A stretch of 41,388 bases of DNA from a virus. The position numbers and the translations under genes are program-made. How positions within the stretch are numbered: the first letter of the stretch is position 1; every line of letters begins with the position of its first letter. The notes beneath the pieces are model-generated. The model did no database searches, had not been told where the DNA came from, and was given only the letters and a program-made list of their open reading frames with translations. The stretch is taken from positions 1 through 41,388 of the IMG/VR virus record IMGVR_UViG_3300009593_000037; one strand, given 5' to 3'. Below, piece by piece: positions 1 to 37,281 of the stretch.

Positions 1-3000
1 ATAGATCCATTAGCGAGCTTTGCAGGTAATCCTATAGGTTCTGTAACTAATAAATTAGAAGATGCTATTACAGATTCTGGTGTTATTAGCGATAGGTGGA
101 AAGAGTTTGATTCAAACGATGATGGTTTCCTTGGTTTCTTTGAAGCCGTTGGCAACCCTGACTATGGTAAAGATTGGTTTGGTGGAGGCAAATTAGGTTG
201 GACAGCGCATCATATTATGGAACTAGGTGGGTTAATAGGTAGTGATCCAATTTCTATAGTTAGTCTTGGTGCAGGTCATGTAGCTAAAACTGCTATTAGG
301 CAGATGTCTACAGCTCTCGGTGTTTTAAATAAAGAGGCAGGGGGAGTGGCTAAATTATGGATAACTTTAGGAGATGATGCTGCATTAGCTCAATCTAAAG
401 CAGTTCGTGCTGCACAGCTTGTCGCACAAGGATTTAATAAAACACCTATAAAGAACGCTACTGCAATGGACAAGCAGATAATAAAGGATCTGCTACATTT
501 CGCAAGAGCTGGAGATGATGCGGTAGCTACGTTAGGTAGCAAAGGTGGTTATCAAAAGGTGCTGCTGGACGCTACCGCTAAACAAAATAAAAAGATAGCT
601 AGGTCTGCGGAACGTGTAATGAAACGAACAGGTGGCGGTATTTTTGCCACTTATCCAAGTGTTTTCGCAACAGGAAAAGGCATAGGGGTAGTAGACCATT
701 TGGTGCCAGGAACTAGAAGGTTGTATCAATGGACGAGATCAGCAGGCTATAAGCATGATACTTGGGAAGCTGTCGTAAAGTATATACCTTCAATAGGTAC
801 TGCTACTACAAGGGGAGTAGCTCACGGCGCAGCACGGATCCAAACAGGAGCTAAAGGATTCCATGATGTTCGTACTCAGTTTGATAAAGCTAATAAAATT
901 ATAGAGATTTTAAGAAAGGGAGCTAATCAAGAGGAAGTAATTGATGATTACATTTTCCAAACGTTAGGAGATGTACCAGTAACTGGCCCGCAATCTGTTA
1001 CTAGGGGAGTAAGCGACCTTGGACTACCTGAATCATTCGGTATAGAGGATTTCATAAAGGTAATTAAGACAACCGACGAAGAAGCTGCAAAAATATTAAG
1101 GTTCTTTGAAGACACTGGAATTATCACTCTTGACACACCAGTGATTGGTATTCAACGTGGTGCCAATGTTAAGTGGAGATGGGTAATGGACACAGGTGAG
1201 GTGACTACGTACAGCAATGCTTCTGATCGCCTGTTGGGTATGCGGAATATTATAGATCAGGCTCGTCGTGATGGATTTAATAGCCTTGATGAAGTAGCTA
1301 CGTCTTTAAACGCTGGGCTTGAAACTGCATGGGCTCCAGCGCATGTTGACACTGTTGTTGAAATGGGCTGGAGGCCTAGAGGCGCTCCAGAAACATGGAT
1401 ACAGCAACGTAACGCTGCATTTATGGAACGTGCTCCAATTAAAGCTTTAAAAAATATGCAGGAAAAGGTTTCAACTTTTCATAAAGCTGGTAGTGCGCAA
1501 GTATTTAACGCAGATGAAGCTCGTGCATATTCTTCGATGGCTGTCAAAACAGCACAAGCTAATGTAGAAACTACAAAACAAATCTTAACTCGCCATTTCG
1601 GTAAAGTTATATCTGCTTTAAAGAAAGCTCGTCCTGAATGGACAGACGAAGAGATACGTGAAGTTGCAGGGAGGATAGTCAATACGTATAAGAGCGCTGA
1701 TAATAGGAATAAAGCTATGTCGGCACTTAAGAATGAATACAGTCAAGGACCTCGTGATACTGCATTTTTAAATGAAGTAGAAGCTTTTAGCAGAAATCTT
1801 GATGTCATGTCGCAGGAATGGGATGACTGGTTAAGGATGGTGAAAGGGGCTGAGTACTCTAAGAAGGAACCTCGCAGGTACATGCCTCGAAGGGTTGATA
1901 CTGAAACAACTCAGATGGTTAATGATTGGCTGGCAGCAGGAAACGAAATAGGGCGTAAGTTATATAATGATTTGACAAATCGAGATGAAGTTTTCAGATA
2001 TATGCAAGAATCTGATGATTTCATAAAGATGTCTAAAACATTTGGTGGAAAAACAGAAGCAGAACAATTGGAGTGGATGCGTAAGCAAGCTGAAGCTTAC
2101 GTTAACTTTATTAAAGAAAACAAAAAGGTTGGTTTAGGACGATTCGGAAAAGCTAAAGCTGCTTTTGGAAGAATGCCTGACGAAAAGAAACTCACGACGA
2201 TGATAGATGCTAACAGCAGCGGACATTTAAGCGCTCGTGTTTTCTTAGCTGACGTTGAAAACGTTGTTGAAGTGAATAAAGTGATGCGTGAAATACTGGA
2301 AAAAGCTGCTGAACGGCACGTTAAAGCAGGCAATAGTGATTGGGCGATAACTAATTTTTATTCTGTTGATCCTGTGGATCAATGGATGCGTTATGTGCGA
2401 GGTAATAATGACGCTATTTTAATAAATGATTTAACTTTGAACTTGCAGAAACTTCAAATCATGGATGATGTGGGGTATGGGATAACTCATGGAGGAGCGT
2501 TTGATCCAATAGATGTTGTCCCTCCTCCTCCTAGGCCACCTGCTGGTCCTGCTGCTGGTCCTCCACCAGCTCCGCTTGTACCAAAAGGAGCTCCTACGTG
2601 GTCAGATGAACACCTTCCTCCACCGGCAAGAAAACTTACTCCTGAAGAAGAAGCAATGGATGCGTTTGATGCGGCGAAGTTTAGAGATGAAGTTGGTTAT
2701 GGGCCTCCAATGCCCAATACACAAGCAGGCGAAAGCGCAGCAAAAGCTATTAAATATTGGGAAGATGTAGTCGCTAAGACAGAAGTTCAATTAGAGAAAG
2801 CAATAGCAGAAGGTGGACCAATATATAAAAAAGGAACTAAAGGCGCAGCTAATATGAAAGCACTTGGCCTTAGAGACAAGCTCGCAAACTCTAAGAAAAA
2901 ATTAGAGACATACAAAGGAGCCACAAGGCGTGTTACTGAAGCTAAGAAAAGAGATACAGAACGTGTGGCTGAATTAACTGGTGTAGATACAACAACTGAT

Positions 3001-6000
3001 CCTGCTGTACTACGTGCGAAACAAGAAATAGAAGAAATAGAACTATATCAAAATACAGGGCACTTAATATATAAGAGGCCAGATAGCACTTTTGTTGACG
3101 ACTTTGACTTTGAAAGATTTGCAAATAGCGATACTCCATTCGCTAAAGAAGTTAGAAGGATGCTTGATGAATCGCCAGTTGAAGGTCATATAGCTGATCC
3201 TAATAAGACTTGGAGATCTAAAAACCTTAGAAAATTTTCAGAAAAACGTTTAGCTGACCTTGAGGAACAGTTAGAACAAGCTTCTAAAAAGTTACCTGAA
3301 ACGTTACCAGAACGTGAAGTAGTAGTTAAACAGCTCACAGCTAGACAAGAAGTCGGAACTAGAACAAAAGCAGCCGTTACTGATCTTGACCAACGAATAC
3401 CTACAGGCGCTAAGCTTCACGAGTTACCGCTTGAAGATAGAAAAATAATTGAACACTGGATTAGGAAAGCTCGATTCGCACTCTATAAAGAAAAACCAGC
3501 AGTCCTGTCAACTTCAGAACCTACCCCAGGTTCTTTGTTGAATGTACAACGTGGTACCACTCAGCCAAAAGGCGAACTAGTAACTTCAAAACAAATCGCT
3601 GCTGCTGATAAAGCAGCTAGAGGAACCGACGCTGATCTTGATCCTACAAAGCTGGTTGACATGGCGAAGGATGGGCGAGGCCAAACCTTCCCTTACATCA
3701 ATCATCCTGAAGCGCCAGAAGCTGCAATCACAATGCAATCACATTTGGACTTAGCTGACGATATTATAGAAACAAGTCAGTTAGGGCAATTGCCAGTTAA
3801 ACCAATTTTAGATGACGCATTCAAAGACATTAATGATCAGCTTGGCAGGATCGCTAGAGATTTAAAAATTGCCAAAGACACTACTAAGGAATTTAATCCA
3901 AGTTCTCTTTATCAAGGAAAACGAGGAACTCGCCGAGGTATTAATACGAAACAAGAAGCAGCAGGTACTGATGAAGCTCTACTCGCCATGGAAAAACAAA
4001 GGCTAGTTGACAAGATAAAGAACAATCTTATCCATAGCAAACCCATTGTTAAAGAAGCAGATGGCGTAGTTCAAGAAGCTACAGTTAATTTAAATGCGAC
4101 ACAAGCTGTAGCCAACAGGCAAACTCAGCTACATAAAAGTTACGCTAGAAGGTTCGGCACTGAAGAAGGTTCTCCTACTGCTATATGGACTCCAGATGAA
4201 CAAGCTAAAGGAGTTATCCCACAACGAGGGCATAAGGCATCTAATACGTTTGAAGGGCAAGAACTGGATCTTCGTGGGCCACAACCTAATATAAATGATT
4301 TAAGAGATCCGTTGCCGATATCTGACCATAAGTTAGATAGGGTAATATCGGGTGGTCAGACAGGTGCTGATCGTACAGGTTTAGAAGTGGCAGCAGAGAT
4401 GGGAATCCCTACTGGTGGGAATCCTTCGTTAAATGCATATGTTAAATCAACTGGGAAGCAAGTATTTAAAACTGGTGAAGATGTTTCAGTAGTGCCTTAT
4501 GTGGTGCATAAGGATACTGTTGGTAAGACTGTTCCAACTAGGAAAAATCTTTTTGGGGATAAAGGCCCTGAAAAATTTGTTCAAGTTACCAAGAATGCAT
4601 ATAACAACAGGGAGCAGATGTGGTTAACTGATCAGTCTTTAAAGCATTATATGGATCCGCCAAATACAAAATTAGGTTTTGGTTATCCTGCACGTACTGC
4701 AAGAAATGTTATTGATGCTGACGCTACTGTCATTATAGATTTGCAAGCTTTTGACCCAAGTCAAATTAGTAAATCACAGTTCTTTAATAAGATAACAGGT
4801 GGTCGTAAACAAGCAGAAAATTGGACTCCGACACACAAGAACAGTACTAATGTGGGTGTGGATACACGGACGCTTATTTCTCAAGAGGGATCAGAGTATT
4901 CAGGGTTGTATCCTGCTGGTTCAGGTTCGCAAGACACAATTAGGTATGCTAGGGGTGAATATGTAGATGCGAATTTTGATTATGGTGCAAGGAAAGCAGG
5001 AGTTACTGATCCGAGTACAGGCAAAGTAGGTAAGGAATTACCTACTGTTGGTAATATTCAAGCGAATGAATTAACTAGACCTGTCCTTGTATTGAAAGAT
5101 TCAGATCCTCAGTCTTTACGATGGTTTCATGAATGGTTAAAAGAACATAATGTTAAGACTTTAAATGTAGCTGGTAACGCAAACGTTGGGCAGAACGCAC
5201 GTGAAATTGTTCGTGTCACACGTGAAATTATGGAAAGTTTAGAGCCAGTTAAAGTAGCTGCTGTCAGGGAAGCAGATGTAATCCCTATTCGTCCTATTGC
5301 TAAGCCACAAGTTTCACGAAAGTTATTGCCAGATGTAGAAGTAAAACCAAATATAAAAACAACTTCAATTGGGGCGAAAATAAAGAAAGCTACTAAGCCT
5401 AAAGATAAGTCCAATTATAATTTTTGGGATGATTGGTTAGAAGATAAGTGGTTTAAAGATACGATTTGGAAAGGGGGAAGGCATCACTCAGCGTGGTTCG
5501 GTGATCAACCTTGGTCTTATGTAAAGGGTACTCCAGCGCATCCTGCAAGACCAATAGCTGGTTATCCAGAGCTGGTTGAGTTAGCTGATCAAGTTGGCGC
5601 ACAGATGGGCTACCCTAAAGGGTATTTCAACAGCGTTTTGGTCAATAGATACAAAGCAGGTATTGGCGAATTTGAATTAAAATCGGCAAAGGCTGGTGAA
5701 ACTGTTGAAGATTTGAGCAAAGGATTAAAACCTCATAGGGATGCTGATGAGATCTTTGAATTAGCTAAAGGTGATAAAGCTGCTGGTCATAGTCCAGTGG
5801 CAACAATAACGTTTGGTGGAGAAGCGAAGATAAATATTGGAAAAGAGAAAACCAAGAACCTTCATCGAATTAAGAACGTTGAAGATAGTTTTACTGTAGG
5901 CAATAACGATATCTATGTTATGCCAGGCGGTGATTTTCAAACCAAGTATTTGCATCAAGTGGATCATGTAAGCAAAGACCCAAGGATAAGTTTTACTTTC

Positions 6001-9000
6001 CGAAGGATAGGTGCTTGGGGTGAAGGTGGCGCTAAAGAGATAGTAGAAGGTCCTACTACTTACATGCCTCATACCTATTACATGAGCAAAAAAGCTGCGA
6101 ATGTCCCTACAGGTGGAGAGGCAGCTATCAAATGGGTGCAAGAGGGAAGCCGGAAATCAACAATACGTTCAAAAAGTTATTTAGATGAAAACTTTAAAGA
6201 CCTTGAAGTCGGAAGCGTGATCGCTATGGGCGATGAGAACAATCATGTTTTTGTTAAGGTCACTGAAGTCAGGAGATTGAGAGACGGCTGGACTAAAGAT
6301 AAGAGAGTATTGGCAGAACTTTCTGAAACCGAGCTTTGGAAACCAAATGAGATAGCAAGAAAAGTTTATAAAGGCGGAATTGAGAAACCTAATAACCCAC
6401 GTTATTATATTAAGTTTGAAAAGATTGGTGAAGATGCTGTACCGAGACAACCTGTAGAAACTAAGGCAGGGCGTTTAGAAGGCAAGGCAAAACCTGCTGA
6501 TAGAATGACTGCAGATGAAATAGAAATGGAATGGACTCAGTTAGGTGGGCATGTAAGCGACCTTAAATCAAGGGTAGCTGCGCCTAGAAGCCCATGGGAA
6601 AGCAGGGTAACTCAAGCTAGGCGAGAACTTGACCAAGCTAAAAAAACTAGAGACAAGCTTGTAATGGAAGCAGAGGAAGCAACCAATGAGGAACTTGCTA
6701 AGATTGCTGGTTTAAAATCGACTGATCTTGTTGACGGTAAATGGAAGATACGACCTAGCGAAGTAGATGTAGCTCCGCCAAACGCTAAAGAAATAGTTGA
6801 ACAAGCTCAACAAATGGGGATACCCAATACTAAAAAGTTAGGAGAACATTTACTTAAGGGCCAAGAAGGTACTGACGTTGTGCCTCTACTTAATAACGTT
6901 ATCGAATGGGTCACTAATAATTTTCCTGAAATCGCTAAGCAAGCTCCTAAGAAAGTCGTTAAACATGTAAAGGATGACGCACGTTTTGTGACACATAATG
7001 TTAATGCGAAGCCTATCAACATAGTAAAGGGAAAAAGAACTGGACGGTTCGCCCCCTTATCGCAGGAGGCTTATAGGCCCTTTAAATTTAAGCCACGTAG
7101 TATGCAGCATGGTGGTGAAATAGTGGAGAGAGAATTTTTAAGTGTTCAACATGCTTATCAATCATTAAAGTCAGGGCGTTTTAACGAAAAAATCTATAAG
7201 AAATACAACGGAGTTGGCGCTAGAGGAACTACGCCCGATAGTTGGCCTAAATATAAACCTACGGTAGATCAAAACAAACTTCTTAAGATGACATATCAAA
7301 AGAATGATTGGAACATCGAACTAATGGAAGACATTATGAGGGCTTCCATAAAACAAAATGATGATATAGCGAAACTCCTTGACGAAACAGGCGACTCTCC
7401 ATTGACTTACATACTTAAGAAGCAAGGCAAGCAAGTAAAGGAGAATATTTGGACTGAGAAATTTCCTGAAATACTACAAAAAATACGTGCAGAAAGAAGA
7501 CTAGATAAAGTACAAAAACAAACTGCAGAATCAGTAAAAGATCCATTAAAGATAGCTAAAGAAGAAGGGACAATTATTGGGGGTGGAAGTTTTGGTTGGG
7601 CTGACCCAATGCCTCCAATAAATGCAGAAGCAAGAGCAAGACTAAAAGCTACCTATGGGCAAGGAGGAAAACAACAACGAGCACTAGTAGCAAGGCCAGG
7701 CGCTGTAGAAGGTACCTTCACATACCCTCAAGGGGGCAAGGGTGACTTCGTATTCCAATGGAAATCTTATCGTGACAATACAGTCCAGACGTTAAAAGGA
7801 AGAAGCATGGAAGATCTTGAAAGATCGATACTTGCAAATGATGAACTTTCAAAGTACACCATTCACCACGTCGGAGGGGAAAAAGGCGCTGTCCTAATAG
7901 ATAGTGAAATATCTGAAATGATCACAAGAGATGTCTTGCCTCGTATCAAAGACGGCTACATGGCTGAAGGCATGGGAAATATCATGCATCAATTCAATAC
8001 AGCATGGGCAGCTTACGCAACCGTGCCGTTAGTAGCAGGCATTGGATTCCATGCTAGAAACCATGGGGGCAACTGGTTCAATATGGTGCTCGCAGGATTT
8101 AGAAACCCTAAGTACATTCATCAAGCAATGAAGTACCAACGGCTTAATTCTGTGGTACATGAACACCAAATAGAAAAATTTATTACCCAATACAATGACG
8201 CAGTTGATGATCTAGTTAGGGTAGGTGGTAGAAATGTTGGAAAAGAAAAAATAAAACTCACCAAACATGAAGCAAAGATACTCAAACAACTCAACCACAA
8301 TGCTGTATTAAATGGATCGTTCTTTAAGGACCTTCAATATGATAGGAACATCTTTTTAAGCGCAGCAGGAACAGCTAAAACAAAACGTGCAAGAAATCTA
8401 TTGGTAAACAATCCAGTTATTAGAACTGGTCAAAAATTTGGGCAAGCAATAGAAGACAATGCACGTATAGCATTGTACCTTGATGGTGTAGAAGCGAAAG
8501 CTTTAACTCCATTCTTGGCAGCTTCAAGAGTCCGTGAATTTCTTTTTGACTACGGAGATTTAACAGCGCAAGAATTAATGGTTAAGAATAACTTAAGTAG
8601 GTTCTATACATTCATGCGTAAAAACACAGAACTACAAGCACGAATGCTAATGGAAAGTCCAGGCAATACAATTAATTTACAACGCACTACTGAATCAATC
8701 GTTAAAGCCCTACTAGGACCTTCCGACGAGTGGAGAGAACGATTTCTCCCTGATTGGACAAAACAAGTAGGTCGTGTAATAGGTGCAGGAGGAGTTGTTA
8801 CCGGACGTTTTGAAACACCTGCGATTGCTGCTCTTGAAACCGTTGAACGCCTTGCTACTATACCTGCATTGTTACCGATAATAAAAGATGGGATGCCAGA
8901 ATACCTCACCGGATATGACCCTGCAACAGGGAAGCATGACTGGCGTGGGCGAGTTAACGAAATGACACAGATGCTTTCCGGCGGTACTGTATCAGCGGTT

Positions 9001-10350
9001 AATTATTTACAAGAATACCAGACAGGAAGAAGTCTATTCACTGGAGCAATACTAGAACCTGGCTGGCAGAACGAATTAATGCGGTTCGTTAACACAGGTA
9101 TCCCTATAGTTGGTAAGACAGTAAGCACGTTTGAAAAGTTAGGATTAATAGATTGGGCTAACAAACATACACCATTTGAGATAGATATTAGTGTCGTAGC
9201 AGACCATCAAAAACTTCAGGCAGAATTAGAATCTGAATTAACTGCAAGAGAGCGAGCTTACTTTAGAGCGCTTGGAGTATTTTTTGGTATAGAAACTTAT
9301 TTCTTAGATGCTGATCAACAAATGAGAATGGTCGGTAATTTCAGAACTGAATGGAACAAAGTATTAAACGAAGCTGAAGAACATGGCATTGACGTACCTA
9401 CAATGGAGGAACTTAGAGAACATGGAGCATACTCTGAAGCTGATTCTTTCTTAACAGCCATGTTCTACTCCGCAGATCCTATCCGTGCACTAGAACGTGG
9501 CCTTCCTGCAGAAGCTAGAAGGGTAGTTACTGAAGGGTTCGGTATAGATCTACTAGAAACATACAAAAATGCGAAAACAGATGAAGAAAAATGGGAAGAA
9601 GTGCAAACTGCTTTAGAGATGACTGAAATGATTATTAATAAAGACACCCCAGAAGGAGCGCCACGTAAAAAATTAAGTGATCAAGATATACTTAATATCG
9701 CTTTAGCTCATCCAGCTTTTGGATTTGGTGTTGATGAATTAGAAGCATTTGAAATAGAGGGCTTTAGAAAAAATGTTTGGGACAAAGACGAAACGTCCGA
9801 AGAAAACTTAAGAGTATCTGAACAGCATCTTAGCTACATGTTTGATCAACTAGGGATTAACTGGAGCTATGCTATGGATCTGCGTCCACGAATCACACAA
9901 GCTGAAAGATTCTGGAGAGATGGTGTAGAAAGAGGCTACTCGACCAACGAAATCTTCCTCGAATGGGTAGATGACATGTCAAGACAAACTAAAGGAGAGC
10001 TTTTTGGCACAGAAACACTTGACTACTGGAACTTAGATAAGTTCACAAGCAAAGAAGACCTTGACAAGTTAAACGATAGATTGCGAGAAGATATCGCTAC
10101 GGTAACAATCGCTTCGTTCATAATGGGAATCAACCCGACACAAGAAGACATCATGTACTTCATGGTTTACGGTAAAGATAGGTTAACAAACTCACAACGT
10201 AAAGCATTAGGACTTCCGCTTCCTAAACGCATACCAGATAGAGAAGATCCAAGAACTGCTAACGCAATTAACTTAGATACGCTATTAAAGACAGAAGCTA
10301 TTCAATCCTCAATGCCTTCTGCGCCACCAGCTTCGCTCATAGCAGGCTGA
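1..10350 (+). CDS. Giant multi-domain polyvalent phage protein (5' end outside window)
   Basis: The frame is open from base 1, so the start lies upstream; the first Met in the window is at 217. At least 3,449 residues are visible. Parts in order: an EF-hand-like loop (109-144, DSNDDGFLGFFE); long helical regions; a Pro-rich linker (2517-2600); coiled coil; a MoCo-carrier/SLOG-like domain (about 4325-5245) with GGQTGADRTGLE and NVIDADATVIID; an AlkB-like Fe(II)/2-oxoglutarate dioxygenase (about 5430-6025) with PHRDAD, LHQV and RISFTFR; a weakly supported ASCH/PUA-like segment (about 6178-6430); a NADAR-like domain (about 7045-7500) with SVQHAYQ and DETGDSPL; and a helical C-terminal third with FHARNHGGNWFN and FYTFMRKNTELQARM. 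Established: such fusions are known as polyvalent proteins of phages and conjugative elements, thought to enter the cell with the DNA. Inferred: an ejected virion protein that counters host defence. Its 3' end overlaps the convergent TerS-like gene by 49 bp. Confidence 0.85.
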   Translation: MDPLASFAGNPIGSVTNKLEDAITDSGVISDRWKEFDSNDDGFLGFFEAVGNPDYGKDWFGGGKLGWTAHHIMELGGLIGSDPISIVSLGAGHVAKTAIRQMSTALGVLNKEAGGVAKLWITLGDDAALAQSKAVRAAQLVAQGFNKTPIKNATAMDKQIIKDLLHFARAGDDAVATLGSKGGYQKVLLDATAKQNKKIARSAERVMKRTGGGIFATYPSVFATGKGIGVVDHLVPGTRRLYQWTRSAGYKHDTWEAVVKYIPSIGTATTRGVAHGAARIQTGAKGFHDVRTQFDKANKIIEILRKGANQEEVIDDYIFQTLGDVPVTGPQSVTRGVSDLGLPESFGIEDFIKVIKTTDEEAAKILRFFEDTGIITLDTPVIGIQRGANVKWRWVMDTGEVTTYSNASDRLLGMRNIIDQARRDGFNSLDEVATSLNAGLETAWAPAHVDTVVEMGWRPRGAPETWIQQRNAAFMERAPIKALKNMQEKVSTFHKAGSAQVFNADEARAYSSMAVKTAQANVETTKQILTRHFGKVISALKKARPEWTDEEIREVAGRIVNTYKSADNRNKAMSALKNEYSQGPRDTAFLNEVEAFSRNLDVMSQEWDDWLRMVKGAEYSKKEPRRYMPRRVDTETTQMVNDWLAAGNEIGRKLYNDLTNRDEVFRYMQESDDFIKMSKTFGGKTEAEQLEWMRKQAEAYVNFIKENKKVGLGRFGKAKAAFGRMPDEKKLTTMIDANSSGHLSARVFLADVENVVEVNKVMREILEKAAERHVKAGNSDWAITNFYSVDPVDQWMRYVRGNNDAILINDLTLNLQKLQIMDDVGYGITHGGAFDPIDVVPPPPRPPAGPAAGPPPAPLVPKGAPTWSDEHLPPPARKLTPEEEAMDAFDAAKFRDEVGYGPPMPNTQAGESAAKAIKYWEDVVAKTEVQLEKAIAEGGPIYKKGTKGAANMKALGLRDKLANSKKKLETYKGATRRVTEAKKRDTERVAELTGVDTTTDPAVLRAKQEIEEIELYQNTGHLIYKRPDSTFVDDFDFERFANSDTPFAKEVRRMLDESPVEGHIADPNKTWRSKNLRKFSEKRLADLEEQLEQASKKLPETLPEREVVVKQLTARQEVGTRTKAAVTDLDQRIPTGAKLHELPLEDRKIIEHWIRKARFALYKEKPAVLSTSEPTPGSLLNVQRGTTQPKGELVTSKQIAAADKAARGTDADLDPTKLVDMAKDGRGQTFPYINHPEAPEAAITMQSHLDLADDIIETSQLGQLPVKPILDDAFKDINDQLGRIARDLKIAKDTTKEFNPSSLYQGKRGTRRGINTKQEAAGTDEALLAMEKQRLVDKIKNNLIHSKPIVKEADGVVQEATVNLNATQAVANRQTQLHKSYARRFGTEEGSPTAIWTPDEQAKGVIPQRGHKASNTFEGQELDLRGPQPNINDLRDPLPISDHKLDRVISGGQTGADRTGLEVAAEMGIPTGGNPSLNAYVKSTGKQVFKTGEDVSVVPYVVHKDTVGKTVPTRKNLFGDKGPEKFVQVTKNAYNNREQMWLTDQSLKHYMDPPNTKLGFGYPARTARNVIDADATVIIDLQAFDPSQISKSQFFNKITGGRKQAENWTPTHKNSTNVGVDTRTLISQEGSEYSGLYPAGSGSQDTIRYARGEYVDANFDYGARKAGVTDPSTGKVGKELPTVGNIQANELTRPVLVLKDSDPQSLRWFHEWLKEHNVKTLNVAGNANVGQNAREIVRVTREIMESLEPVKVAAVREADVIPIRPIAKPQVSRKLLPDVEVKPNIKTTSIGAKIKKATKPKDKSNYNFWDDWLEDKWFKDTIWKGGRHHSAWFGDQPWSYVKGTPAHPARPIAGYPELVELADQVGAQMGYPKGYFNSVLVNRYKAGIGEFELKSAKAGETVEDLSKGLKPHRDADEIFELAKGDKAAGHSPVATITFGGEAKINIGKEKTKNLHRIKNVEDSFTVGNNDIYVMPGGDFQTKYLHQVDHVSKDPRISFTFRRIGAWGEGGAKEIVEGPTTYMPHTYYMSKKAANVPTGGEAAIKWVQEGSRKSTIRSKSYLDENFKDLEVGSVIAMGDENNHVFVKVTEVRRLRDGWTKDKRVLAELSETELWKPNEIARKVYKGGIEKPNNPRYYIKFEKIGEDAVPRQPVETKAGRLEGKAKPADRMTADEIEMEWTQLGGHVSDLKSRVAAPRSPWESRVTQARRELDQAKKTRDKLVMEAEEATNEELAKIAGLKSTDLVDGKWKIRPSEVDVAPPNAKEIVEQAQQMGIPNTKKLGEHLLKGQEGTDVVPLLNNVIEWVTNNFPEIAKQAPKKVVKHVKDDARFVTHNVNAKPINIVKGKRTGRFAPLSQEAYRPFKFKPRSMQHGGEIVEREFLSVQHAYQSLKSGRFNEKIYKKYNGVGARGTTPDSWPKYKPTVDQNKLLKMTYQKNDWNIELMEDIMRASIKQNDDIAKLLDETGDSPLTYILKKQGKQVKENIWTEKFPEILQKIRAERRLDKVQKQTAESVKDPLKIAKEEGTIIGGGSFGWADPMPPINAEARARLKATYGQGGKQQRALVARPGAVEGTFTYPQGGKGDFVFQWKSYRDNTVQTLKGRSMEDLERSILANDELSKYTIHHVGGEKGAVLIDSEISEMITRDVLPRIKDGYMAEGMGNIMHQFNTAWAAYATVPLVAGIGFHARNHGGNWFNMVLAGFRNPKYIHQAMKYQRLNSVVHEHQIEKFITQYNDAVDDLVRVGGRNVGKEKIKLTKHEAKILKQLNHNAVLNGSFFKDLQYDRNIFLSAAGTAKTKRARNLLVNNPVIRTGQKFGQAIEDNARIALYLDGVEAKALTPFLAASRVREFLFDYGDLTAQELMVKNNLSRFYTFMRKNTELQARMLMESPGNTINLQRTTESIVKALLGPSDEWRERFLPDWTKQVGRVIGAGGVVTGRFETPAIAALETVERLATIPALLPIIKDGMPEYLTGYDPATGKHDWRGRVNEMTQMLSGGTVSAVNYLQEYQTGRSLFTGAILEPGWQNELMRFVNTGIPIVGKTVSTFEKLGLIDWANKHTPFEIDISVVADHQKLQAELESELTARERAYFRALGVFFGIETYFLDADQQMRMVGNFRTEWNKVLNEAEEHGIDVPTMEELREHGAYSEADSFLTAMFYSADPIRALERGLPAEARRVVTEGFGIDLLETYKNAKTDEEKWEEVQTALEMTEMIINKDTPEGAPRKKLSDQDILNIALAHPAFGFGVDELEAFEIEGFRKNVWDKDETSEENLRVSEQHLSYMFDQLGINWSYAMDLRPRITQAERFWRDGVERGYSTNEIFLEWVDDMSRQTKGELFGTETLDYWNLDKFTSKEDLDKLNDRLREDIATVTIASFIMGINPTQEDIMYFMVYGKDRLTNSQRKALGLPLPKRIPDREDPRTANAINLDTLLKTEAIQSSMPSAPPASLIAG

Positions 10351-10766
10351 ACTTCTATAATTTCAGCTTCCATTAATTGATTCTGATCCCTGCGTTCTTT
10401 AAGGGTGCCTATAAGTTCACGGATAGTATCTGTAGCTTCAAGGACATGAGTGTGTGTAGTCTCAACCTCAAGCTTTGCAGTTCTAGCTTCACGAGCTTCA
10501 CGTCTACGCTTAAGAGAACGATACTCCTTGATCATAGAAGAATCACCAGCTACCGCCATCTCACGCATACGTCTCTCAACCTGATCAAAGGCAGCTTCTT
10601 CGGCATCTAACATTTGTTCAGCAAATTCAGGGTCACGTTTTTCATGACGGCGTAAAGTTTCTACCGTAATACCTGCCTCACCACAAGCCTCAGCTCTAGT
10701 TTTACCAATAGCAATTGCCATTAACAAAGTACTACGTGTCTTAGGATCATCTAAACGAGGTTTCAT
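10302..10766 (-). CDS. Terminase small subunit-like HTH protein
   Basis: The 154-residue product begins with a helix-turn-helix region (GKTRAEACGEAGITVETLRR) followed by an acidic helix (DPEFAEQMLDAEEAAFDQVE). This is the arrangement typical of phage terminase small subunits, which recognise packaging sites. A long charged coiled coil (EYRSLKRRREAREARTAKLE) and an acidic tail follow. The gene is the last of the minus-strand arm. Its start overlaps the primase-helicase stop by 4 bp (ATGA), and its 3' end overlaps the giant gene antisense by 49 bp. It lies about 17 kb from the large subunit, which is unusual. The HTH and terminase-like helix are visible; the terminase role is inferred, and another DNA-binding function is possible. 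Confidence 0.6.
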   Translation of the reverse strand: MKPRLDDPKTRSTLLMAIAIGKTRAEACGEAGITVETLRRHEKRDPEFAEQMLDAEEAAFDQVERRMREMAVAGDSSMIKEYRSLKRRREAREARTAKLEVETTHTHVLEATDTIRELIGTLKERRDQNQLMEAEIIEVQPAMSEAGGAEGIED

Positions 10767-23035: not shown

Positions 23036-23115
23036 AATCCCCCTTAATTTGTTAACACTTCATTGAATTTCCTTTCATTTTCATCAACTTCTTTTTTTCT
23101 TTCTAACGAATCATC

Positions 23116-23133
23116 TTAGGGCCACTGTAATGG
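23116..23133 (-). promoter_or_regulatory. Repeated promoter-like motif, copy C
   Basis: Minus-strand CCATTACAGTGGCCCTAA shares the GTGGCCCTAA core and the ATTA element with copies A and B but has one base fewer between them. It lies in the 152-bp gap 23036-23187, 80 bp before the SNase start. The rest of that gap shows only a possible 10-codon frame (MKMKGNSMKC) and AT-rich sequence. Confidence 0.4.
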
Positions 23134-23173
23134 CTTTCGATAATACTTTGTAAGGAGAACAATTTTTTTTATA

Positions 23174-23205
23174 GGTGAGATGGACCCTTACGAGTCCATC
23201 CCACC
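23174..23205 (-). terminator. 12-bp hairpin at the end of the Cys-rich gene
   Basis: GGTGGGATGGAC pairs with GTCCATCTCACC (one G-T pair) around the stop codon on the minus strand. It is followed there by an A run, not a T run, so it is not a standard intrinsic terminator. It may stabilise the mRNA end or act on the opposite strand. Confidence 0.4.
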
Positions 23206-23451
23206 TAATGCGATCAGCTCAACGATAACTTCATCTCTGTCGTCATTAAAGAGAGTAGATGAGCATCCAGTATTGAAGGTATGAAAGCTGTCGTTGGCTA
23301 CAATCCAGTCATATATACCACAACTGTAGTAACCAGGTCTATCTCCAACTAAGTATTTACATGCGGAGTTAGCTGGAGATATAGCTTTGCCGTGAATGCA
23401 AGGCGCTTGTTTACAACAAAAACCTGATCTCACGCATGGGGCATCAGCCAA
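23188..23451 (-). CDS. Small YkgJ-like Cys-rich metal-chelating protein
   Basis: The 87-residue protein starts at TTG behind AGGAG and opens ADAPCVRSGFCCKQAPCIHG. It has further cysteines in SACKYL, YYSCGIY and NTGCSS, seven in all. The CxxSGxCC start is typical of zinc/iron-chelating YkgJ-like domains, which occur as short forms in phages. No ATG exists in frame before the first Cys, which supports the TTG start. It overlaps the upstream 46-residue gene by 8 bp. Role unknown. Confidence 0.65.
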   Translation of the reverse strand: MADAPCVRSGFCCKQAPCIHGKAISPANSACKYLVGDRPGYYSCGIYDWIVANDSFHTFNTGCSSTLFNDDRDEVIVELIALGGMDS

Positions 23452-23584
23452 GTACCCTTCTCCTATTATCTAAATACTTAAGAGTAGGACTTACCTTAAC
23501 TTCTGCATTGAATATTCTATGAATGTACTTAGGATTCTTTGTTATCCTGTACATCCTATATAAATGAGTTGAACGTTTATTCAT
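23444..23584 (-). CDS. Small basic protein, 46 residues
   Basis: A frame fills the gap between two minus-strand genes. It starts at an ATG that overlaps the upstream stop (ATGA) and ends 8 bp inside the downstream gene. It begins MNKRSTHLYRMYRITKNPKY and ends NRRRVLG. The product is very basic with several aromatics, which would suit nucleic-acid binding. Support is from the perfect overlaps on both sides. No family is recognised. Confidence 0.6.
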   Translation of the reverse strand: MNKRSTHLYRMYRITKNPKYIHRIFNAEVKVSPTLKYLDNRRRVLG

Positions 23585-23763
23585 GGTTTCAACTTCCCTC
23601 TTTCTTCTCGTAGAGATCGAGCCATATAACTAATATTTCTACGTAATCGTCTAATCTCCATTTTTAATTTGGATATGTATAAAGGACCGATAAGTATCGT
23701 CATAAGAAAAACACATGTCATTATTGTGCTTAAGATACTCTGGTCAAATTCTGGATTACCCAT
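23581..23763 (-). CDS. Single-pass membrane protein, about 60 residues
   Basis: An N-terminal segment (ILSTIMTCVFLMTILIGPLY) is a clear transmembrane helix. It is followed by a highly basic helix (KLKMEIRRLRRNISYMARSL) that should stay in the cytoplasm. AAGGGAAA precedes the ATG at 23763; a GTG one codon earlier is possible. The arrangement resembles small phage membrane or holin-like accessory proteins, but no family is recognised. It is coupled by ATGA to the next gene. Confidence 0.6.
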   Translation of the reverse strand: MGNPEFDQSILSTIMTCVFLMTILIGPLYISKLKMEIRRLRRNISYMARSLREERGKLKP

Positions 23764-23774
23764 CACTTTCCCTT

Positions 23775-24971
23775 CTATATGTTATGGAGATCATCTATGT
23801 TCAGATGAGTCTCTTCATTATTAAAGAACACTGAATCAATGTCCTTATCCAACTCTGGAACCAGATCCTCAGTTTCACCCTGAGCATCTTCGAGTTCCTT
23901 CTCTTGAGCTTTACGTCGTCTAATAATGTCATGACGAGCCATTGGACGTTTATTAGTTGGTGCACGAAGATTGCGTATCATATCTTCTTCACTAATTAAC
24001 GGCTTGGGCTTGTTAGCCTCTACCACTTCGTCTGGTAAATCAGATTCAGATGCTGTACCATAACCGTCATCAAGATCAACTAACTCACGATAACATGCAT
24101 TAAGCTCAGATATATACCGCTTCCAACCACTATATCTAGCTGGCAATGAGAAATAACCAACATCAATATTAGTAAACTCAAAAGGCGGAATATGCTTAGG
24201 TTTAGGTGGACGCTTATAATTAATATCAAGCAAATTCATAATAACCGTAGCTTGTTTAGTAGCAGCAACACATTCAATAGTGCGACCATCTTTATCATCA
24301 ACATTGAAACCGTAATGAGGTGCTTTCTCATATATCATTGACTCAGGATCGAGCACTACTCTAACTTCATATGTCGAACCAGATTTCAGAGGTTTGAGTA
24401 CACCATAATCAATAAGATCTTGAACAGCAATATAAGCAGGCTTAGATATAGCAAGAATGTCAGATAACAAAACATCTGCTTTAACTCGGCGTAATGCACG
24501 AGGTCTTTGGATAGGCCTACGACTACCATCATTTGGTACAGTCGCTACAACAACAGCTACACCTTCTGGGTACAATTGTGATTCAATGACATTAATATCA
24601 AACCACAATGCATCATCAAAATCTTTAGCAATTTTGACTGGCCTTGGATCACCTAACCTAGCCCAACCGTAATCAATTTGGATACCTCGCATCCATTGAC
24701 AACTATCCAAGTTTCTGAAATTAGCCTTCAGTGATGAAAAGTGATAATTGATCTGTTGGTTGAGTGTTAGCTCTTCTTTAATCTGTTCATCTGTTAAATT
24801 AGTATCTCTTCTTATTTCATAAGCTTTACGCAATGAACCAACATCTGGCATAGGCATAGTTATTTCACGAATCTCATCTTCCAATGCTGACCATTGAATA
24901 ACGAGTTCACCTCCATAACCGCCTTCCCGATGCTGCATTGCAGTAGCTGCATCTACATGGTTATTATCCAT
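23775..24971 (-). CDS. Hypothetical protein, 398 residues
   Basis: I do not recognise this protein. It has a soluble mixed alpha/beta composition, with an N-terminal helical part (LTDEQIKEELTLNQQINYHF) and a middle region rich in strands (AVVVATVPNDG, YEVRVVLDPES). A basic segment (KRPMARHDIIRRRKAQEKEL) and a strongly acidic C-terminus (ETEDLVPELDKDIDSVFFNN) follow. A strong AAAGGAGAGATT ribosome-binding site precedes the ATG. Position among small early genes and the acidic tail would fit a DNA-transaction accessory protein, but this is a guess. Confidence 0.6.
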   Translation of the reverse strand: MDNNHVDAATAMQHREGGYGGELVIQWSALEDEIREITMPMPDVGSLRKAYEIRRDTNLTDEQIKEELTLNQQINYHFSSLKANFRNLDSCQWMRGIQIDYGWARLGDPRPVKIAKDFDDALWFDINVIESQLYPEGVAVVVATVPNDGSRRPIQRPRALRRVKADVLLSDILAISKPAYIAVQDLIDYGVLKPLKSGSTYEVRVVLDPESMIYEKAPHYGFNVDDKDGRTIECVAATKQATVIMNLLDINYKRPPKPKHIPPFEFTNIDVGYFSLPARYSGWKRYISELNACYRELVDLDDGYGTASESDLPDEVVEANKPKPLISEEDMIRNLRAPTNKRPMARHDIIRRRKAQEKELEDAQGETEDLVPELDKDIDSVFFNNEETHLNIDDLHNI

Positions 24972-24991
24972 AATCTCTCCTTTTTAAATAA

Positions 24992-25159
24992 TTAAATAGA
25001 GCAGTTTAGGCACATGCTCAGGTGGTTTATTTTTACACAACGAGGATCTCTTTCTGTTGCCACGACTTCACCTCTATGTATCGAGTCGCCGAATCTTATT
25101 CGCTTACCTTTTGGAACCTTCTTTTTTTTCTTTTTCCTGTAAGATTTGGGTAACCTCAT
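24992..25159 (-). CDS. Small basic protein with C-terminal CxxC, 55 residues
   Basis: The frame begins MRLPKSYRKKKKKKVPKGKR and ends CVKINHLSMCLNCSI, so it has a polylysine N-terminus and a possible metal-binding end. GGAA stands 7 bp before the ATG. It overlaps the end of the 25104-25409 gene by 56 bp in another frame, and the overlap includes an A8 run. It may be independently translated or reached by frameshift from the upstream gene. Coding is plausible but not certain. Confidence 0.45.
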   Translation of the reverse strand: MRLPKSYRKKKKKKVPKGKRIRFGDSIHRGEVVATERDPRCVKINHLSMCLNCSI

Positions 25160-25409
25160 CAGAATATTCCAGATCAGGTAATTGTGTTTGCCAGCAATCA
25201 TTGCACAAGTAATATGCATTCCACATGTTGTTACGTATGCGGTGATTATTTATTAATATCTCAGAATCTGAAGGGCACCAATCATCACCTAAAACTTCTT
25301 GAGTTGATATCTTCCCTTCAAAATATGAAACAGCTTTATAGGCATCAACATCGAGACTGTTCACAATATTGCAGTCATCACATTGAGCCGTAATGGTTAT
25401 CATAGACAT
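25104..25409 (-). CDS. Small two-CxxC zinc-finger protein, 101 residues
   Basis: The product has CDDCNIVNSLDVDAYKAVSY near the N-terminus and YLCNDCWQTQLP about 60 residues later, two CxxC knuckles that probably bind one zinc. The ATG at 25409 follows AAAGGAG at good spacing; an earlier in-frame ATG at 25424 has none. A repeated promoter-like motif lies 25 bp upstream. The C-terminus is EKEKKEGSKR. Small zinc-binding phage protein of unknown function. Confidence 0.65.
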   Translation of the reverse strand: MSMITITAQCDDCNIVNSLDVDAYKAVSYFEGKISTQEVLGDDWCPSDSEILINNHRIRNNMWNAYYLCNDCWQTQLPDLEYSDEVTQILQEKEKKEGSKR

Positions 25410-25434
25410 GTAAGCTCCTTTCATGGCTTACTAG

Positions 25435-25453
25435 TTAGGGCCACGCTTAATAG
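25435..25453 (-). promoter_or_regulatory. Repeated promoter-like motif, copy A
   Basis: Minus-strand CTATTAAGCGTGGCCCTAA, matching copy B at 17 of 19 positions. It lies between the terminator at 25482-25537 and the 25104-25409 gene, 25 bp before its ATG. It does not match sigma70 -35/-10 consensus. Confidence 0.5.
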
Positions 25454-25481
25454 TAAATCGATATCCGTAAGACCTAACAAC

Positions 25482-25537
25482 AAAAAAAATGTAGAGTCCA
25501 GTAGCTGCACAGCGGGGGAACTGTGCAACTACCGGAC
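25482..25537 (-). terminator. Strong intrinsic terminator
   Basis: A 17-bp stem (25496-25512 with 25521-25537, two G-T pairs) with an 8-nt loop lies directly after the 25544-26140 gene. It is followed on the minus strand by eight T residues (25482-25489). A textbook Rho-independent terminator. Confidence 0.88.
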
Positions 25538-25543
25538 ATTTGA

Positions 25544-26140
25544 CTAGATGATCGATGAGCCGTTTGACTCTAGACCTTCTAGGATGTTCACACCATTGAA
25601 CTGTTCGGTGTGAGCGTGTTGAGCAACCTTCTCATTGAAGAAGTCCAATGTAGGTGGGTTAGTGTACTGCTCAGATGCTTGTGATTGCTGAATTGCGTAC
25701 ACAATAGTTGCTGTGACATCAACGCCAGCATCAACAAGTCCACTGTAATCATCAAGGAACTTCTTCCAGGTAGCGCTTTCGCCACCGACAATTTTACCAT
25801 CGGAGCCTGAGCCATATACGACCTCATAAGTCGAAGGTGCCTCGTCGCCATATTGCCATTTGCAAAAACCACCACGGATATTCCAAGGGTTGTTGCTTGT
25901 ACCGTTGTAACGGTGATTATGAACTTCCAGTAGATCTTTGACCGTATGCTCAAAGCCGGATTGTCCAGTAGTGACGTAACCAATAGTACGGTCAACATCA
26001 GTACGAGCTAATTGACTAGTGAGCCAATCGCTAAGAGAACGGACAACAGCGCCGTAGTTACGAACGCCATCCGTTCTGGGTGAATCATCAGTTGATGGGT
26101 AGAAGTACCTACAACCAATAAAATATACAAGATGAATCAT
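25544..26140 (-). CDS. Hypothetical protein, first gene of the leftward arm
   Basis: The 198-residue product begins MIHLVYFIGCRYFYPSTDDS. The start at 26140 is chosen for the perfect AAAGGAGG ribosome-binding site 6 bp before it; a longer frame to 26191 lacks one. The composition is soluble, with YVTTGQSGFEHTVKDLLEVH and NNPWNIRGGFCKWQYGDEAP, and no recognised catalytic motif. As the first leftward gene with its own strong terminator, it is probably expressed early and at a high level, like many phage host-takeover proteins (inference). Family unknown. Confidence 0.7.
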   Translation of the reverse strand: MIHLVYFIGCRYFYPSTDDSPRTDGVRNYGAVVRSLSDWLTSQLARTDVDRTIGYVTTGQSGFEHTVKDLLEVHNHRYNGTSNNPWNIRGGFCKWQYGDEAPSTYEVVYGSGSDGKIVGGESATWKKFLDDYSGLVDAGVDVTATIVYAIQQSQASEQYTNPPTLDFFNEKVAQHAHTEQFNGVNILEGLESNGSSII

Positions 26141-26185: not shown

Positions 26186-26586
26186 AGGCATGCGCCTGCA
26201 TTGCTGTCAAGTCGGCAGCTCTGCTGGTTGATCGTTGATAAAAGAATTTAAGAAAGTTTTCGACAGGCTTACCGCACCGCAGCGTCACACCGAGGGGAAG
26301 TGACGACACACTTTGCGTGTCGTGATATGGCGGAACTTTGGGGCGAGAGCAGCTCCGCTGCGAAGCAACAAAGTCAGTGCCATATTACGACATCGGAAAC
26401 TCAATGCAGTTTATTGAGTTTCCGTCCGCAGGCGCAACGTGTGGCGGCACTTACCCGACGCTGCCATCGCCCTAGTACGGCGATGGCAGACAGTGTGACC
26501 GAGGAGCTGGAAAGCCCGAGAAAAGTTTCTTAAATTGTTTTAGCGACGGTCAACAATCCGACTTGACGGCGGAAAGGCGTATGCCT
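26186..26586 (+). ncRNA. Candidate large structured RNA or cruciform element, 401 nt
   Basis: The ends pair over long range: 26186-26197 with 26575-26586 (12 pairs), 26206-26215 with 26558-26567 (10 perfect pairs), and 26227-26261 with 26520-26554 (32 of 35 positions, no bulge). GGCTT 26266-26270 with 26512-26516 and GTCACAC 26284-26290 with 26493-26499 continue the trunk. Branches are hairpins 26303-26323 (7 bp), an arm 26324-26386 with inner stems, 26394-26424 (12 bp perfect), 26426-26447 and 26461-26489 (11 bp perfect). Three differences between the two trunk strands are G-U pairs on the plus strand but would be A-C mismatches on the minus strand, which favours a plus-strand RNA. No plausible gene lies here. 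It resembles none of tRNA, tmRNA or RNase P RNA. A replication-origin or packaging DNA structure is the main alternative. Confidence 0.65.
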
Positions 26587-26591
26587 ATAAT
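26563..26591 (+). promoter_or_regulatory. Sigma70-like promoter for the rightward arm
   Basis: TTGACG (26563-26568), a 17-bp spacer and perfect TATAAT (26586-26591). The start would be near 26598, reading toward the endonuclease VII and terminase genes. The -35 lies inside the 3' strand of the structured element, so folding and promoter use could affect each other. Confidence 0.75.
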
Positions 26592-26639: not shown

Positions 26640-26713
26640 TTGAACCAGCGCAAACAAGACAGCGTTGCACTGTCCGGTGGAGTCGGCGCTGGTTCAAAGG
26701 GTGGGTGGGTGGG
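26640..26713 (+). other. Long hairpin followed by perfect G-quadruplex motif
   Basis: TTGAACCAGCGC (26640-26651) pairs perfectly with 26686-26697, with an inner GACAG/CTGTC stem (26658-26662 with 26670-26674). One base later comes GGGTGGGTGGGTGGG (26699-26713), four G3 tracts with single-T loops, the arrangement known to form very stable parallel quadruplexes. It would be in the leader of the rightward transcript. Beyond it, 26714-26815 holds only a small CCTATT/AATAGG hairpin and G- and C-rich tracts. Confidence 0.8.
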
Positions 26714-26815
26714 ATAGGCCCTGTACCTATTTAACGCTGAATAGGGGGGTATACTATCAACGTGTCTACCCAAGGGAGGGGTGTACAGCACTCTATCCCC
26801 CCTCTCCCTATATAG

Positions 26816-27304
26816 ATGCGTTTTGGTGTTGGGGTTGCTTTTTTTCTGTCCCTGAAGTATGTTCTAGGGGTGGCTACTTCTGATTTTCATAATAAGAAAT
26901 TAAAATTTTGTAGGTATTGTAAGGAGTGGGTAACTGAGTATAAGGATAATCAGACGTATTGTGATCCTTGTTGGAAGGTGTATAAGCGCCGTCAGTATCA
27001 TATTGCTAAGCATAAGCCTCGTTTGATGGCTGCTCAGGGGTCTAAGTGTGCTATTTGTGAGGCTGATTTTACGTATATGGCGACTGGGAAGATTCATGTG
27101 GATCATTTGCATGGTGATCGGTATTTGATTCGTGGGTTGTTGTGTTTGCATTGCAATTCTGTGTTGGGGCATTCCTTGGATCGCCCCGATGTTTTGCGGA
27201 AGGCTGCTGATTATTTGGAGGCTACTGAGGCTCGTCCTTTGGAAGATATTTTAGAAGAGCTTGATCGTAAGGAATCTATGAGTAAACTTAAGGGTGTATT
27301 CTAG
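26816..27304 (+). CDS. Recombination endonuclease VII-like HNH nuclease
   Basis: The product has a zinc-ribbon start (FCRYCKEW, TYCDPCWK) and an endonuclease VII/HNH core: CAICEADF, IHVDHLHGDRYLIRGLLC and LHCNSVLGH, followed by a helix (ADYLE). These enzymes cut branched DNA and are often encoded beside terminases, where they act in packaging. The ATG at 26816 has no clear ribosome-binding site, and a GTG at 26870 would start closer to the first CxxC. Codons are markedly G- and T-rich compared with late genes downstream. Nuclease call firm; start uncertain. Confidence 0.82.
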   Translation: MRFGVGVAFFLSLKYVLGVATSDFHNKKLKFCRYCKEWVTEYKDNQTYCDPCWKVYKRRQYHIAKHKPRLMAAQGSKCAICEADFTYMATGKIHVDHLHGDRYLIRGLLCLHCNSVLGHSLDRPDVLRKAADYLEATEARPLEDILEELDRKESMSKLKGVF

Positions 27305-31707: not shown

Positions 31708-32496
31708 GTGGCAGATTATGAAAGAGAAATAAAGAAACTACGTGAAGAAGCTGCTAGATATAGGACTCAATTAGCTCCTTATAAAAAAGCTTTTGGTAGT
31801 ATGGACAATGATGCGATAGAATGGTTATTACGTTCTGTCGAATTAGTTTCAGAAGATCCTAGCGAAGCAGGTAGAAGGTTTGCTACGCTAGCTTATGGAA
31901 ATCTTGGTGATAGAGAATTTAAAAACTGGATTCAAGATGTAGTCTATGACGGTGACGTTGTAGAAGAAGATTATGATCATAATGAAGATCATGAAGGAGA
32001 AGAAATGGAAATGGAAACAGATGAAAGCAACTCTAACGATATGCCTGAATGGGCAAAAAATTTAGAGGAACGTGTCACAGGAGTAGTTCAGGCTGTGGAG
32101 CAACAAAGTCAAGAACGTGTTGCTAGCGCTGAACGAAAAGAACAATTTAAAGTAATTAACGACACTGTTACACGACTTGGTTATGATTCAGATTCTTGGC
32201 AAGGAAAAATGCTTCTTCAAGTAGCAAGTAATGAAGTTGACGCTCAAGAAGATATTGTTACTCGATTAGAAAAAGCTGCTTCAATAGTTCAAGAGCGACT
32301 TGGGGATAAAGCTCCAAGTAACGATACTGTTCAAATCGGAGAAGCTTCGATACCAAATGAAGAGATTGAAGTTCCAGCCACTGGAGGTCAAGTAGGTGGT
32401 GGAGGTATCCCTAATGTAAATTCAGATACTCCTTCTACTTTTGGTGATGCTGACGAAGCTTTAATGAATCTTATGAAAAGTCAAGTCGGACAATGA
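31708..32496 (+). CDS. Capsid scaffolding protein
   Basis: The 262-residue, strongly acidic protein starts with a coiled coil (EREIKKLREEAARYRTQLAP). It has an acidic middle (YDHNEDHEGEEMEMETDESN), a second helical region and a Gly-rich linker, and ends with a helix (EALMNLMKSQVGQ). This composition and the place between portal and later capsid genes fit an internal scaffold for prohead assembly. It starts at GTG two bases after the portal stop, and its stop overlaps the endolysin start (ATGA). Confidence 0.75.
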   Translation: MADYEREIKKLREEAARYRTQLAPYKKAFGSMDNDAIEWLLRSVELVSEDPSEAGRRFATLAYGNLGDREFKNWIQDVVYDGDVVEEDYDHNEDHEGEEMEMETDESNSNDMPEWAKNLEERVTGVVQAVEQQSQERVASAERKEQFKVINDTVTRLGYDSDSWQGKMLLQVASNEVDAQEDIVTRLEKAASIVQERLGDKAPSNDTVQIGEASIPNEEIEVPATGGQVGGGGIPNVNSDTPSTFGDADEALMNLMKSQVGQ

Positions 32497-36789: not shown

Positions 36790-36801
36790 CCTCTAAACTA
36801 G

Positions 36802-36841
36802 AGCCAGCAGGGTTTTTATCCTTTCTTCCCTGCTGGCTTTA
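36802..36841 (+). terminator. Hairpin terminator after the capsid genes
   Basis: AGCCAGCAGGG (36802-36812) pairs perfectly with CCCTGCTGGCT (36828-36838), followed by TT, then AGGAGG of the next gene. The short T run means partial termination or mRNA end protection, limiting expression of genes downstream of the capsid. Confidence 0.65.
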
Positions 36842-36849
36842 GGAGGATT

Positions 36850-37281
36850 ATGAACACCAAACGAGCTGAGTTAACTCGACGAATACGAGAAACCAAACTC
36901 ATAGGTGGTGACCTATGCGATATTATTACTAAGGGATCACCAGCTATGGGATGGGAAGGTGATCCTTTCCTAATGGTTTGTTGGAATAAAGAGTTAAACA
37001 GAATCGAAATATGGGATGAAAGGAACGGAGCCGGTAGGGAAACCTTAGTCGGCTCCGCACCTTTTGATCCTCTTCCGAATCCTTATCAAATGGTTCAATA
37101 CCTTATGATGCGTGATATGTCACGCAAATCTATAGATCAAATTGTTAACGAGATCGATGATCATAACGATAAAATTTTTGAAGACAAAGCTAAAAAAGAT
37201 GCTGAACGATTAGAAGAAGCTGAAGACAGGATTGAATTAGCATACGCTAAGGAGATGGGATTTAAAGGAAGATTATACTAA
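36850..37281 (+). CDS. Hypothetical virion or assembly protein, 143 residues
   Basis: An N-terminal helix (KRAELTRRIRETKLIGG) leads to a compact middle (GDPFLMVCWNKELNRIEIWD) and a C-terminal charged coiled coil (DDHNDKIFEDKAKKDAERLE). AGGAGG stands 6 bp before the ATG. It lies between capsid and adaptor genes, so a head-completion or assembly-chaperone role is plausible, but no family is recognised. Confidence 0.6.
   Translation: MNTKRAELTRRIRETKLIGGDLCDIITKGSPAMGWEGDPFLMVCWNKELNRIEIWDERNGAGRETLVGSAPFDPLPNPYQMVQYLMMRDMSRKSIDQIVNEIDDHNDKIFEDKAKKDAERLEEAEDRIELAYAKEMGFKGRLY

Follow-up and report, generated by a model that had tools for sequence, protein, structure and literature searches.

A paired element conserved in place but not in sequence within a phage group: a candidate non-coding structural RNA locus

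GOLLD and ROOL are large, ornate, non-coding RNAs encoded by phages, of unknown function; covariance models with a conserved core exist for them, and they are often found close to tRNA islands (PMC12286853). The pRNA of phi29 conserves its structure while its sequence is highly variable, and has one small topology belonging to a phi29-type motor (PMC12670572). The cabRNAs are structured phage RNAs from the terminase region, ∼400 nt or <50 nt in length and without sequence homology between phages, which originate from the terS/terL coding sequence, are recognised through their double-stranded structure and trigger CBASS defence (PMC10686824).

The locus described here lies at positions 26186–26586 of the window, by which we mean the whole stretch of DNA analysed, a 41,388-base IMG/VR virus record. 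It resembles GOLLD and ROOL in being large, ornate, non-coding and phage-encoded, but differs in having no Rfam match, tRNA or conserved core. As with pRNA, structure is kept while sequence varies and packaging genes are near, but the topology and size of the element vary and the phage carries a TerS/TerL pair. The likeness to cabRNA is that of a structured phage sequence in the terminase region without homology between types; however, the element forms a non-coding locus of its own, located upstream of the endonuclease VII (EndoVII) gene and apparently selected for pairing.

The window had no match in Rfam at the gathering threshold, and searches with the gap at E ≤ 5 and with five relatives at E ≤ 2 gave nothing beyond eukaryotic models hit by chance and a single leader model scoring far short of its cut-off. 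A tRNA/tmRNA search of the window found none, and the element showed no DNA similarity to phages and plasmids. The elements of the different sequence types are as dissimilar as shuffled sequences (the window and locus L009 excepted), leaving no conserved core of the GOLLD, ROOL or OLE kind. The Rfam searches exclude membership of GOLLD and ROOL, and for all three classes covariance-model match, nucleotide core and tRNA proximity are lacking. The GOLLD/ROOL likeness raised by an earlier note on this DNA, which claimed no match, is not supported on these grounds. Likewise, we found neither a match to the Rfam pRNA model nor a phi29-type packaging ATPase.

Fold and genomic setting of the element

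Folding of 26186–26586 gave minimum free energies of −221.5 kcal/mol for the plus strand and −190.7 kcal/mol for the minus strand, with z-scores of −16.2 and −11.1, respectively, and 0 of 100 shuffles folded equally well. The fold is thus beyond chance, as the earlier note had claimed, and is among the strongest folding outliers in the 41-kb window, with a hairpin region at 36801 scoring nearly equal. Structured non-coding sequence extends past 26586, with more hairpins up to ∼26800. The features of the element and its flanks are as follows.

25544–26140, minus strand: gene that opens the minus-strand arm (RBS AAGGAGG, with its start read as 26140), on the side where gene content differs among members
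26186–26586, plus strand: main multi-branched element, 157 pairs of which 10 are G-U, with trunk blocks of 12, 15 and 32 pairs
26186–26197/26575–26586, plus strand: outer trunk block, 12 bp
26201–26215/26558–26572, plus strand: second trunk block, 15 bp
26227–26261/26520–26554, plus strand: third trunk block, 11+5+11+5 = 32 pairs
26201–26261, plus strand: left arm of the trunk, partner 26520–26572
26520–26572, plus strand: right arm of the trunk
26284–26499, plus strand: apical multi-branch domain, closed by a 7-bp stem (GTCACAC/GTGTGAC) and holding hairpins 26319–26391, 26394–26424 and 26461–26489
26284–26290/26493–26499, plus strand: the bracketing 7-bp stem
26394–26424, plus strand: apical hairpin, perfect, 13 bp
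26461–26489, plus strand: apical hairpin, perfect, 11 bp
26563–26591, plus strand: sigma-70-like promoter TTGACG-17-TATAAT (11/12), in the right foot of the trunk and pointing rightward, away from the element
26640–26697, plus strand: hairpin 2, perfect 12-bp stem, homologous to L009 4741–4798
26785–26799, plus strand: conserved motif ACAGCACTCTAYCCC, present in the whole family with 0–4 mismatches, often with GGGG..CCCC flanks
26835–26863, plus strand: late-promoter-like TTGnnn-17-TATGTT with conserved spacer, in all members, its −10 ending 6–7 nt before the EndoVII start
26870–27304, plus strand: EndoVII gene, first gene of the late arm, adjoining the element in every member examined

The earlier note had described trunk blocks of 12, 10 and 32 pairs, and perfect hairpins of 12 and 11 bp together with a bracketing 7-bp stem. 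The 12- and 32-pair blocks, the 11-bp hairpin and the 7-bp stem were all recovered, whereas the second block has 15 bp and the other hairpin 13 bp. The plus-strand trunk of the window contains five G-U columns and no A-C, in agreement with its remark that trunk differences keep G-U pairing on that strand, and the large divergent gap it pointed to is where the element sits, between the minus-strand and plus-strand arms.

The minus-strand arm encodes the terminase small subunit (TerS, matching phrog_4044), a primase, a Sak4-like protein, exonucleases and a helicase, followed by variable genes. The plus-strand arm begins with EndoVII and continues with TerL (matching phrog_38, 1.1 kb downstream of the element), the portal, an endolysin and the major capsid protein. 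The TerS gene (10302–10766) is on the opposite arm, 17 kb from TerL, in all members spanning both. The genes to the left of the element (23100–26140) are mostly swapped between members, forming an accessory region beside it.

To the right of the main element, hairpin 2 is followed by a stem at ∼26705–26780 and then by two sequence-conserved motifs before the EndoVII gene. The ACAGCACTCTAYCCC motif is possibly an operator or a loop motif. Hairpin 2 and motif B are joined by a linker whose plus strand carries the run GGGTGGGTGGGTGGG (26698–26714), a perfect G-quadruplex motif, and G-rich runs near this position are also present in L009, L012 and L020. The sigma-70-like promoter in the trunk foot occurs in the window and was not found in the other types, and no plus-strand promoter left of the element is common to the six types. 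A TATAAT at the left edge of L016/L017 was rejected as an RNA promoter, being the complement of the RBS of the minus-strand gene. Because the −10 of the late-promoter-like site ends so close to the start codon, EndoVII may be translated from a leaderless mRNA, one that need not include the element.

Pairing and strand asymmetry among relatives

About 19 IMG/VR contigs form the phage group, with TerL mostly at least 85% identical and a common circular gene order. No close isolate relative of the group was found; the best capsid and portal matches were to Arthrobacter and Microbacterium phages and to uncultivated phages (∼22–31%), and a scan of prokaryote genomes gave one distant TerL only. A short-motif scan of viral contigs returned mostly unrelated contigs, and two pattern scans for further members of the L016/L017 type and the hairpin-2 type found none. 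We compared the locus across relatives whose contigs span the divergent gap, comprising just six sequence types: window/L025, L009, L014, L012/L013, L020/L245 and L016/L017.

In all six types, this divergent gap holds a long element rich in base pairs, with plus-strand z-scores of about −6 to −17. No other region of most members is a stronger folding outlier, although the signal is weaker in L016/L017. Identity of the element to that of the window is 0.44–0.51 for L012, L014, L016, L017 and L020, the same as for shuffled controls, and 0.56 for L009 against 0.50 ± 0.01 when shuffled, a faint similarity. The flank (motif B plus EndoVII) is 0.84–0.88 identical across types. The size and topology of the element differ, from about 240 nt to ∼1 kb: L014 has one rod of 240 nt bearing a side hairpin, L012 has a long, sparsely branched rod, and the element of L020 is nearly 1 kb with many hairpins, some of them exact duplicates. 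In sister clades (TerL ≤60%), there was no comparable folding outlier, although the contigs of the 60% relatives end at the site and may lack one for that reason.

Exact 18–19-nt repeats form hairpin tips or bulges within single elements, at 4472–4489 and 4534–4551 in L009, and at 2931–2948/3140–3157 and 2943–2961/3308–3326 in L020, as if a module had been duplicated.

Between L016 and L017, the two-sequence consensus has 78 pairs, with 68 the same, seven changed on one side, three changed on both sides and none broken, the last figure being partly built in since RNAalifold disfavours broken pairs. All seven one-sided changes still pair on the plus strand, and in the hairpin that reads GAGGCTTTTGCCTC in one and GAGCCTTTTGGCTC in the other, the compensation is clear by eye. 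In hairpin 2, 6 of the 12 stem pairs differ on both sides between the window and L009, none is broken, and the inner strand AACRAGACAGCGTT is conserved. For the trunk of the window fold (47 pairs), L009 keeps 38 as standard pairs, 12 of them through two-sided changes, in a sequence-only alignment that needs low gap costs (MAFFT defaults place the left arm differently). Sliding the partner by 1–5 bases left 14–25 pairs, and 100 shuffled and realigned sequences gave a maximum of 26. Outside the trunk, the window fold mapped on L009 was no better than the null; the central part of the element could not be aligned, and a global structural alignment of the two was significant in the trunk and hairpin 2 only. 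The earlier note had named an absence of compensatory changes in relatives as evidence against an RNA; compensatory changes are present in L016/L017, hairpin 2 and the trunk, and compensation between relatives is a generic mark of structured RNA.

A second such mark is that G-U is tolerated and A-C avoided on one strand, and this too was found. We folded the sequences without G-U pairs, so that G-T and A-C were treated alike, and counted isolated mismatches within helices. The plus strand displayed 18 G-U versus 4 A-C, with 196 versus 199 in dinucleotide shuffles (p = 0.002), and an excess of purine-purine over pyrimidine-pyrimidine mismatches. The trunks of the window and L009 combined have nine G-U and one A-C. 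Folding of the plus strand, be it as RNA or as single-stranded DNA, would produce such a G-U excess. In the coding strands of the window phage, third positions are enriched in T and G, and a transcription-linked mutation bias could add to the G-U excess, the plus strand being the transcript in that case too.

Candidate readings of the locus

We favour a non-coding structural RNA locus on the plus strand, selected for pairing and not for sequence, to which we give a probability of roughly 0.5. The RNA hinted at by the earlier note is supported to this extent, by the compensation and by the preference for G-U over A-C, but not as kin of GOLLD and ROOL; an origin, a packaging site and a pRNA-like factor, which it named as alternatives, are each conceivable. 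Position, folding excess, compensation and strand asymmetry are shown by the sequences. The element most likely evolves very fast, through compensatory changes, remodelling and now and then the duplication of a hairpin, and we infer its transcription, either on its own or within a longer RNA.

The main rival to a plus-strand RNA is single-stranded-DNA folding. As a DNA element, the plus strand would act as folded single-stranded DNA or as a cruciform, serving as an origin or priming site or as a substrate for EndoVII or terminase, which we consider possible but unlikely. Its location in the divergent gap of a circularly ordered genome speaks for such a role, as do the adjacency of EndoVII in all members and the many contig ends at the element. 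About 10 contigs of the group, including the long G005 and G007, terminate inside the EndoVII gene or no more than roughly 650 nt upstream of it; short-read assembly was probably broken there by strong structure or strain variation. As the site lies in the interior of other contigs, it is unlikely to be a genome end. Single-stranded DNA likewise favours G-T over A-C, whereas a cruciform alone predicts equal numbers, in conflict with the observed 18:4. Long rods with many internal mismatches would be unusual for cleavage sites, and no iterons or repeats are common to the gaps of the members. Like the element, single-stranded origins of other replicons are folded, depend on orientation and show little sequence conservation; however, those of rolling-circle replicons belong to replicons with a single-stranded DNA intermediate, and the element resides in a tailed double-stranded DNA phage with its own primase and helicase.

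It is rather improbable that the element is a structured leader or control region, whether it heads the minus-strand early operon as a 5′ leader or is a UTR read into the late operon. In L020, ∼20 nt separate the minus-strand start codon from the element, which means that the early mRNA has to begin inside the element or run across it. The left trunk arm of the window contains a minus-strand TTGACA, accompanied by a very weak −10. However, a minus-strand leader predicts the opposite wobble asymmetry, and the element is too large for a leader. With the late-promoter-like site to the right of the element and the second promoter of the window pointing away from it, the late mRNA need not include it either.

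A packaging RNA working like phi29 pRNA has very little likelihood: pRNAs keep their 2D and 3D structure with widely variable sequence (PMC12670572) and TerL is 1.1 kb downstream, but pRNAs retain one topology where the element varies in size (about 240 nt to ∼1 kb) and branch number, the phage has a TerS/TerL set and not a phi29-type ATPase, and there is no Rfam match. We dismissed a mobile inverted-repeat (MITE-like) element or an assembly artefact, to which the palindromic ends and frequent contig breaks might point, as scarcely credible, given a single copy in the genome with none in phages or plasmids, an element of different sequence at the same place in every independent type, and two separate IMG/VR records (window and L025) that are identical base for base across their overlap.

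If the locus does encode a structural RNA, the RNA may act by offering long, nearly perfect duplexes, with paired RNA as such being what matters and not one fold. We propose a duplex-based action because size and topology vary while extensive pairing stays constant. It might, for example, titrate or act as a decoy for a host factor that binds double-stranded RNA, such as an RNase or an RNA-sensing defence. This is a weak suggestion; it would fit the turnover of the element and its place beside variable accessory genes. More speculative, and in our view doubtful, is an RNA class defined by pairing alone, its sequence and topology fully turned over among phages with 85–90% identical TerL, that would act as a double-stranded RNA decoy or immune-interaction RNA under an arms race.

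What is new here is that conservation is limited to pairing and place. RNA discovery builds covariance models from conserved sequence, and such pipelines would miss a locus conserved in pairing and position only. As a structural RNA, it would show with unusual clarity how very fast RNA can evolve by compensation in a DNA phage, and it would be a candidate interactor of bacterial RNA-sensing or RNA-degrading systems.

Elsewhere in the window, the protein encoded at 1–10350 is 3449 aa or longer and has both a circularly permuted YpsA/SLOG segment and a 2OG-Fe(II) oxygenase domain; the protein at this position in relatives is just 31–48% identical (best match). A second hairpin-rich intergenic stretch, with several perfect stems, is present in the accessory region of G004 (loci L277–L279, oriented positions 31740–32110). 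At 36800–36850, between the capsid gene region and the gene at 36850, a conserved 13–15-bp hairpin with a conserved 15-nt loop (TTTTTATCCTTTCTT) sits directly before the RBS of that gene, which suggests a cis-acting RNA hairpin or a terminator. In G006, the sequence of its stem differs and the pairing is intact.
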